Below are positions 14,862 to 15,356 of a stretch of DNA of 64,000 nucleotides, piece after piece. Below the pieces are notes generated by a model. That model worked only from the letters and a program-made list of their open reading frames with translations. It made no database searches and was not told the origin of the DNA. The translations under genes and the position numbers were made by a program. Position 1 is the stretch's first letter. Every line of letters starts with the position of its first letter. This DNA is from Frigoriflavimonas asaccharolytica (GTDB taxonomy: Bacteria > Bacteroidota > Bacteroidia > Flavobacteriales > Weeksellaceae), in the NCBI RefSeq assembly GCF_013294015.1, contig NZ_JABSNO010000008.1:62001-126000 (forward strand), read 5' to 3'.

Positions 14862-14935
14862 GGGTGCGTAGCTCAGCTGGATAGAGCATCTGCCTTCTAA
14901 GCAGACGGTCACAGGTTCGAATCCTGTCGCGCTCA
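14862..14935 (+). tRNA. tRNA-Arg (anticodon TCT)
   Basis: A 74-nt tRNA with acceptor GGGTGCG pairing CGCGCTC (with wobble), D arm AGCTCAGCTGGATAGAGC, anticodon loop CTTCTAA (TCT) and T arm ACAGG-TTCGAAT-CCTGT. Its 3' part and the following terminator are repeated 378 nt downstream behind a GIY-YIG gene. Confidence 0.95.
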
Positions 14936-14977
14936 CTTAAACCTCACAATTTATTGTGAGGTTTTTTTATTTAAAAT
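14881..14977 (+). repeat. tRNA-Arg 3' part plus terminator, copy 1 of a direct repeat
   Basis: This 97-nt stretch runs from ATAGAGCATC in the D arm of tRNA-Arg through the terminator hairpin to TTAAAAT. The last 61 nt (14917-14977) recur at 15295-15356 with a single extra T. Together with copy 2 it brackets the GIY-YIG gene. Confidence 0.9.
14939..14969 (+). terminator. Terminator of the tRNA cluster
   Basis: A perfect 12-bp stem (AAACCTCACAAT/ATTGTGAGGTTT) with a TT loop is followed by a T run. The same hairpin is repeated at 15318-15348. Confidence 0.92.
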
Positions 14978-14982
14978 CTTTC

Positions 14983-15237
14983 ATGGTTTATTGTTACATC
15001 CTCTTTTCGAAAGCATTAAATAAATTTTACATCGGCCATACTTCTGAAAATTTGGACGAAAGATTGCGTAAACATTTATCAAATCATAAAGGATTTACTT
15101 CTAAAACTAAAGACTGGGAAATAGTTTTTTTTGAAGAATTTTCTTCAAAATCTGATGCTTACAAAAGAGAATTAGAAATAAAAAAATGGAAAAGCGCAGT
15201 GAAAATTAAAAAATTAATAGAAACAGCCACCGAATAG
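14983..15237 (+). CDS. Small GIY-YIG nuclease-domain protein inserted behind tRNA-Arg
   Basis: An 84-residue single-domain GIY-YIG protein. The motif pair is YCYILFS...NKFYIGHT at residues ~3-18, the catalytic Arg is in [10 protein letters not shown], and the metal-binding Glu is in [11 protein letters not shown]. This is the UPF0213/URI-like type, whose cellular role is unsettled; related domains make site-specific DNA cuts. I chose the ATG at 14983 because it starts exactly at the domain. Its stop codon TAG is formed by the ATAGAGC of a second tRNA-Arg-like sequence, so the gene sits between two copies of the tRNA 3' end and looks like a tiny tRNA-directed insertion cassette. Confidence 0.85.
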
Positions 15238-15313
15238 AGCATCCCGATTTTCTAAATCGGGACGGTCACAGAGCCTGTACCGATTCATCGGTATTCGAAT
15301 CCTGTCGCGCTCA
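15234..15313 (+). pseudogene. Modified tRNA-Arg 3' fragment
   Basis: Matches tRNA-Arg from the D arm to the discriminator base but lacks the 5' acceptor strand. The anticodon arm has different sequence, a perfect 7-bp stem (TCCCGAT/ATCGGGA), yet keeps the loop TTTCTAA with anticodon TCT. A 21-nt net insertion that contains the hairpin ACCGA-TTCA-TCGGT splits the T arm. The 3' end CCTGTCGCGCTCA is unchanged. It cannot fold as a normal tRNA. Confidence 0.8.
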
Positions 15314-15356
15314 CTTAAACCTCACAATTTATTGTGAGGTTTTTTTTATTTAAAAT
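15295..15356 (+). repeat. tRNA-Arg 3' end plus terminator, copy 2 of the direct repeat
   Basis: Sixty-two nt identical to 14917-14977 except for one additional T in the T run. It contains a full terminator at 15318-15348 which would also end the GIY-YIG transcript. Confidence 0.92.

Follow-up and report, generated by a model that had tools for sequence, protein, structure and literature searches.

The locus studied here raises the question of whether a GIY-YIG nuclease gene lying between two copies of a tRNA-Arg 3' end is a minimal mobile unit directed at a tRNA gene and, if so, how such a unit could spread. The DNA analysed is a stretch of 64,000 nucleotides from Frigoriflavimonas asaccharolytica, hereafter the window. 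In the window, tRNA-Arg(TCT) closes a Ser-Pro-Arg cluster (Table 1), an order common to occupied and empty relatives, and the intact tRNA-Arg has the same sequence as in the empty loci of these relatives, a T-stem variant excepted. The arrangement described in the original prediction (tRNA-Arg and its terminator, an 84-aa GIY-YIG ORF, then a partial tRNA copy with an identical terminator) was confirmed. The repeat, of 62-63 nt with 98% identity and one extra T, links positions 14916-14977 to 15294-15356, the hairpins at 14939-14964 and 15317-15342 are identical, and the start-to-start period is 378 nt, as had been reported. The nuclease frame, which opens with ATG at 14983, ends at a TAG (15235-15237) that inspection places, again as predicted, within the tRNA-derived ATAGAGC (15234-15240). 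The second tRNA-Arg copy is a damaged pseudo-tRNA, a point absent from the original prediction; T-arm inserts like the one it carries were also seen in loci L028, L051, and L056.

Table 1. Features of the tRNA-Arg locus in the window (positions are those of the 64,000-nucleotide stretch).
Feature	Position	Strand	Role or context	Basis
tRNA-Ser(GCT)	14643-14730	+	Upstream cluster context	ARAGORN
tRNA-Pro(TGG)	14753-14828	+	Upstream cluster context	ARAGORN
tRNA-Arg(TCT), intact	14862-14936	+	Presumed landing site, sole functional copy at the locus	ARAGORN
Intrinsic terminator of tRNA-Arg	14939-14968	+	Between tRNA and nuclease gene	11-bp stem and T run
GIY-YIG nuclease gene, 84 aa	14983-15237	+	Catalytic domain only	PF01541, 1.6e-18
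Pseudo-tRNA-Arg, D arm to 3' end	15234-15314	+		63-nt repeat with tRNA-Arg and terminator; D-arm ATAGAGC by inspection
Palindrome TCCCGATTTTCTAAATCGGGA	15242-15262	.	In place of the anticodon arm	Perfect palindrome
Second palindrome, TACCGATTCATCGGTA	15278-15293	.	Inside a 22-nt T-arm insert (15272-15293)	Sequence
Second tRNA-Arg terminator copy	15317-15350	+	Cassette end	Repeat and hairpin

To place this locus within a family, genome contigs were scanned with a single protein, and flanks were fetched for about 170 loci, picked by protein similarity and not by genomic context and all annotated by one script. A homologue at E ≤ 1e-10 was found in 63 of the 247 Weeksellaceae genomes (family assigned by organism names); with an alignment of 18 tRNA-linked proteins, 193 of 395 Bacteroidota genomes matched at E ≤ 1e-14, covering 105 of 171 genera. 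A local tRNA or its remnant adjoined 168 of the 202 distinct GIY-YIG genes in 170 loci, mostly from Bacteroidota; the fetched loci being the better-scoring ones, weaker members of the family may be less strictly tRNA-linked. For 28 of the 34 remaining genes, comparison with a pan-tRNA library gave flank matches at E ≤ 0.01, some of them weak. The six genes with no such match were three outgroup proteins, two genes located at contig ends, and L115, in which 5' pieces of tRNA-Met can be recognized by eye. The median distance from the tRNA end to the nuclease domain was 49 nt, and by our own estimate the chance that a gene starts within 300 nt behind a same-strand tRNA is well under 1% (about 50 tRNA genes in 3.5 Mb). 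Linkage of these nucleases to tRNA genes is near-obligate. Eleven amino-acid types are involved (Arg, Asp, Asn, Met, Val, Ala, Phe, Lys, Thr, Pro, and Ser), the linked tRNA-Arg genes carry the anticodons TCT, ACG, CCG, and CCT, and one cassette was found in Acidobacteria (L149). The original prediction had proposed looking for tRNA sequence behind homologues: the sequence of the local tRNA follows almost always, and it comes from many different tRNAs. A chance duplication is ruled out, since the arrangement recurs in about 170 loci.

No close homologue (E ≤ 1e-6) was detected among 50,697 phage and 72,556 plasmid records, and one weak homologue was located on an IMG/VR contig. On this contig, the sole viral one (L152, positions 2850-3350), an inverted tRNA-Ala lies upstream of the gene and tRNA-Ala remnants with TCCCGA palindromes lie downstream. 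A literature search did not retrieve any description of chromosomal tRNA-linked GIY-YIG cassettes. Two candidates that it returned were set aside: the GIY-YIG protein of a paper on LexA is a different protein, and that of the Tsy element is part of a tyrosine-recombinase transposon.

The cassettes were usually characterized by the presence, in order, of an intact tRNA, its terminator, the nuclease gene, a pseudo-tRNA that starts at about position 9-20 and extends through the 3' end, and a further terminator. Units measured 355-490 nt and held one gene, and at least two units were present in 58 of the 170 loci, with a median period of 362 nt (IQR 354-377). Among 38 readable tRNA-Arg-linked homologues, 15 ended at the same TAG as in the window and 21 ended 18 nt further on, still within the remnant. 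In three tRNA-Asn-linked loci (L080, L082, L084), the predicted protein ends in translated tRNA, e.g., ...LTGVLAQLVRVPIIRD; such ORFs run into the tRNA, and the C-termini given for these nucleases in databases can therefore be tRNA artefacts. A mirrored order (a 5' part of the tRNA into which a palindrome is inserted, the nuclease gene, then the intact tRNA) was observed in L126 and L167. Moreover, about 12 occupied tRNA-Arg loci had extra 5' pieces, from position 1 to about 50-62, ahead of the intact tRNA, several of them bearing the cassette palindrome; no such pieces were found in the 30 loci from genomes that lack a strong homologue. Nuclease-free tandem remnants were present in L025, L037, and L066.

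The damage to the pseudo-tRNAs was not evenly distributed. The T arm was ungapped in 84 of 146 remnants, and the anticodon arm (15/17 positions or better) in four, i.e., it was destroyed in 142. As for the four exceptions, L058 is a complete extra tRNA, L087 compares a remnant with another remnant that ARAGORN called tRNA-Met, and in L160 and L163 the palindrome sits just behind the anticodon arm. The original prediction had suggested that the nuclease may cut at the tRNA 3' end; this is unsupported, as the 3' half (T arm, acceptor strand, and terminator) is the best conserved part and the anticodon arm the destroyed one.

The genome of F. asaccharolytica (3.43 Mb, 67 contigs) holds a second case. 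On contig 13, four units, each about 347 nt long, lie in tandem behind a tRNA-Met and ahead of another intact tRNA-Met; each unit consists of a terminator, a small GIY-YIG gene, and a tRNA-Met 3' piece with two palindromes. Three of the four GIY-YIG genes in this array are broken by stop codons. Two more GIY-YIG genes of this genome have no tRNA nearby. On contig 27 (L011, positions 1310-2000), a GIY-YIG gene (about 1423-1728) lies between copies of a CTTCGGCTGCGCTCAGTCACC repeat.

A search for empty tRNA-Arg sites in relatives, also proposed beforehand, revealed orthologous empty loci in Weeksellaceae, one genome per species being compared. Of the 30 Weeksellaceae genomes in which no strong homologue was present, 25 had clean Ser-Pro-Arg loci, two had a broken nuclease start (L205, L211), and three had a solo decayed remnant (L214, L216, L217). 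Occupied and empty loci with both flanks conserved could be compared in four pairs (L032/L202, L040/L210, L051/L195, and L056/L195). In the first, 794 nt versus 281 nt separate flanks that are 82% and 81% identical; in the second, homology continues for 39 nt beyond the tRNA and is lost where the terminator ends. Likewise, the occupied and unoccupied tRNA-Arg genes within the single genome of L024 have the 41 nt directly behind the tRNA in common before they diverge at the nuclease gene. These empty, occupied, and degenerate states, seen between species and not between strains, are the cycle expected of a homing element. Second tRNA-Pro/tRNA-Arg pairs, with or without a cassette, were also noted a few hundred bases to 2 kb from the Ser-Pro-Arg cluster (L193, L196, L199, L208, L213, L217, L024, and L040), and DNA matches suggest that there are more, further off.

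The 3' part of the remnants evolves in concert with the local tRNA. In all 30 readable Arg loci, which comprise five T-stem variants, the T-stem 3' strand of the remnant was that of its own tRNA; both strands were equal in 24 of the 30, versus 10.7 expected (maximum 17 in 5000 shuffles). Terminator identity was 0.88 within a locus and 0.71 between loci. From this agreement in T stem and terminator, it follows that the 3' arm was copied from, or converted by, the local tRNA. Protein lineages, in turn, keep to their isotype: the isotype label changes 27 times on the protein tree, versus 93.8 times after shuffling (0 of 200 shuffles as low), and the isotype agrees with that of the nearest relative from another family in 60 of 135 cases, versus 26 expected (maximum 51 in 300 within-family shuffles). 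Single branches of this tree, which is built on 80 columns and has many open forks, are for that reason untrustworthy.

Taken together, we consider these units to be probably (at a rough probability of 0.6) a family of free-standing, homing-like selfish cassettes of Bacteroidota chromosomes, spread, presumably also between strains, by break repair without a recombinase. Each would consist of a catalytic GIY-YIG gene, a palindrome-disrupted pseudo-tRNA of the same isotype as the tRNA ahead, and the terminator of that tRNA, and would be inserted immediately downstream of an intact tRNA gene and its terminator. Since only about 15-20 nt separate this terminator from the ATG, low-level read-through past it probably expresses the nuclease. 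The nuclease would then break or nick the intact tRNA gene of the matching isotype in its central part, given that the pseudo-copies have lost the stretch from the anticodon to the T arm and kept both flanks. Repair from a cassette-bearing template would copy the cassette in and rebuild a complete tRNA, the homology arms being the tRNA 5' part on one side and the tRNA 3' part with the terminator on the other. Finally, as direct repeats of tRNA sequence, the units would respond to these same breaks by expanding in tandem, by gene conversion of the 3' arm, or by being lost until only a solo remnant is left; all three outcomes are observed, as arrays, concerted evolution, and solo remnants. The disrupted pseudo-tRNA would itself be uncuttable, so that an array would spare itself. 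The central part of the original prediction, a minimal tRNA-directed cassette without a recombinase, stands, as no recombinase fits in units of 355-490 nt.

Occupied and empty alleles at orthologous sites, by which a homing gene is recognized, were found here between species. The intact tRNA is the same as in empty loci, so that a carrier would not be shielded by any change of target in the tRNA. A separate DNA-binding domain is present in the site-specific homing enzymes known from the GIY-YIG superfamily. Against homing, the cassette proteins are bare catalytic domains of 80-100 aa, which leaves their fidelity to one tRNA gene unexplained. PF01541 was present in 18 of 18 family members, and the residues Y5, Y16, G18, R27, H31, and E63 were invariant in these; the fold and the conserved Tyr, Tyr, Arg, and Glu of the GIY-YIG superfamily are all there. 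The AlphaFold model is a single GIY-YIG domain from end to end, with a pLDDT of 89.8 over the whole chain, and neither sequence nor predicted structure revealed a separate DNA-binding domain. The closest solved structures were those of UPF0213 (1zg2, the top Foldseek match, and 1ywl), followed by SLX1 and the I-TevI catalytic domain. Similarity to 1zg2 spans the whole chain (profile positions 2-78 of 83, E = 1.6e-12).

These relatives bear on the best-surviving alternative, in which the palindrome is the substrate: an SLX1-like, structure-specific enzyme would cut hairpins or cruciforms, and the freed tRNA-flanked units would re-insert at tRNA genes by homologous recombination, a dependence similar to that of REP palindromes on RAYT enzymes. 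We regard this explanation as rather improbable, though it accounts for several observations. A palindrome with arms of at least 6 was present in 138 of 146 remnants, versus 22 of 146 matching stretches of intact tRNAs. The outer sequence TCCCGA (TCCCGA...TCGGGA) was shared by 75 of the 146, among Arg, Ala, Val, Asp, Asn, Met, Phe, and Pro remnants, and the others (TTCCGA, TCTCGT, TCCGCC, TTCGCC, and TCCGTT) were all perfectly paired, figures that are a census and not a test, as detection itself demands perfect pairing. Replacements occur in pairs, as from TCCCGA/TCGGGA to TTCCGA/TCGGAA. SLX1 is a branched-DNA nuclease, a bare catalytic domain suits recognition of structure over sequence, and the remnants of L025 and L037 are in tandem with no nuclease gene. 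However, this alternative alone leaves unexplained why protein lineages track the tRNA isotype, and an identical palindrome occurs elsewhere in the genome with neither tRNA nor nuclease: it is not restricted to the cassettes, with 12 copies in the 3.4-Mb genome versus 0 in the reversed control. For the cassettes themselves, the palindrome may represent either the loss of the cutting site or the enzyme's own substrate. The dispersed copies, TCCCGAT(n)ATCGGGA (L088-L099, 12 places), are identical to the pseudo-tRNA palindrome and nearly always intergenic, several of them sitting within GTCATTGCGA...GAAGCAATCC repeats.

Slightly less probable still is amplification that is local only, in which an old nuclease gene, vertically inherited, would be duplicated and lost by recombination between the tRNA repeats, with SegB-like stimulation by the nuclease, and would not home into empty genomes. 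The terminators and T stems that are identical within each locus are in line with this explanation, as are the tandem arrays; indeed, identical terminators on both sides fit a purely local tandem duplication as well as they fit homing, and in this respect count against the latter. The tRNA-Arg-linked clade is, moreover, almost confined to Weeksellaceae, and the phage and plasmid records searched contained no vehicle. Against local amplification only, the patchy occurrence of homologues within the family (63 of 247 genomes), the clean empty orthologous loci, and the many isotypes suggest gain at new sites, as do the tRNA-Val-linked proteins, which nest within the Arg-linked clade at weakly supported forks.

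A host function, in which the nuclease would serve tRNA gene maintenance or a stress response with the pseudo-tRNA as a regulator or decoy, appears very unlikely. The nuclease is, judging from a dN/dS of about 0.14 among tRNA-Arg-linked homologues, under purifying selection, which also counts in favour of the homing-like reading, and its wide distribution in the sampled Bacteroidota would agree with such a role; but it is missing from about half of the genomes, copies broken by stop codons are frequent in the genome studied here, cassettes decay to solo remnants, and the tRNA types concerned are many and unrelated. We rejected the idea that the cassette is what remains of an ordinary island placed by its integrase at a tRNA attachment site, where such islands usually leave a tRNA 3' duplication (PMC9897764), since there is neither a tyrosine or serine recombinase gene nor, at a median period of 362 nt, space for one, the one-protein unit recurs across the phylum, homology spans the D arm through the terminator with a palindrome as the interruption, and empty and occupied loci differ only by units.

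A sister GIY-YIG clade, of the 'VLYTGVTND' type, was represented by 17 loci in 8 genomes (L223, at 55509-55829 on contig C4 of the genome studied here, and L224-L239). In none of these 17 loci was there a tRNA within 500 nt or a tRNA-like flank; in 16 of them, both flanks contained direct or inverted repeats, most of which belong to the GTCATTGCGAGG / GTCATTCCGAAGGAATC family of dispersed GTCATT repeats. As this sister clade lacks tRNAs and is tied to another repeat, tRNA linkage is a property of the cassette clade. A nuclease may be behind the widespread dispersed GTCATT repeats. Tentatively, at well below even odds, the cassettes would represent a separate class of minimal mobile elements, composed of a bare structure-specific GIY-YIG domain and a palindrome-bearing fragment of the landing site and relying on host recombination only, with tRNA genes and GTCATT repeats as families of landing sites, each with its own nuclease clade.

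The closest known system, and a precedent for the proposed mechanism, is SegB of phages T4/T6, a free-standing GIY-YIG homing endonuclease of the tRNA region. It cuts inside tRNA genes and, through homologous recombination, amplifies a tRNA-Tyr+segB unit into tandem copies; this recombination exploits microhomology that the 3' end of segB shares with the 5' end of the tRNA (PMC13096335). The SegB motif, RAWTSGAAC (PMC13096335), is the reverse complement of GTTCSAWTY, which we read as a probable T-loop sequence. In both systems a GIY-YIG enzyme adjoins tRNA genes, and the 3' end of the cassette nuclease gene also runs into tRNA sequence. Unlike SegB, the cassette is chromosomal, encodes a catalytic domain only, keeps to one tRNA isotype per lineage, and is followed by a palindrome-disrupted pseudo-tRNA. 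No relation to phage Seg proteins beyond the GIY-YIG domain was found in PHROG or in the phage records (E ≤ 1e-6); the PHROG matches were weak and limited to few members (best 1.6e-5, unnamed; homing endonuclease, 1.6e-4), and the window protein had none.

UPF0213/COG2827 (1zg2, 1ywl) is the nearest to the cassette nuclease in both sequence and fold; its structures are structural-genomics singles with no known function, and no tRNA linkage was found for it with the tools used here. SLX1 resembles the cassette nuclease in its GIY-YIG domain, in profile as well as in fold, but it also carries a RING-type domain and acts together with SLX4; the cassette unit includes neither. The cassettes also resemble REP/RAYT systems, in which short palindromes are linked to the gene of a DNA-cutting enzyme; RAYT, however, is an HUH (Y1) enzyme, while the only protein of the cassette is a GIY-YIG nuclease and its palindrome lies inside a pseudo-tRNA. 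With tRNA-integrating islands and ICEs, the cassette has the tRNA 3'-end duplication in common, but these elements need an integrase and are kilobases long, compared with about 360 nt and no recombinase here.

If the homing-like reading is true, the cassettes, at about 360 nt and carried by about half of the sampled Bacteroidota genomes, would rank with the smallest autonomous selfish elements known from bacteria and would account for a large fraction of the partial tRNA genes in this phylum and of its small 'GIY-YIG nuclease family' annotations. It also makes testable how a nuclease of 80 residues keeps to a single tRNA gene, how an essential gene can serve as a landing site and survive, and whether a nuclease lies behind the palindromes and GTCATT repeats that are dispersed in bacterial genomes.
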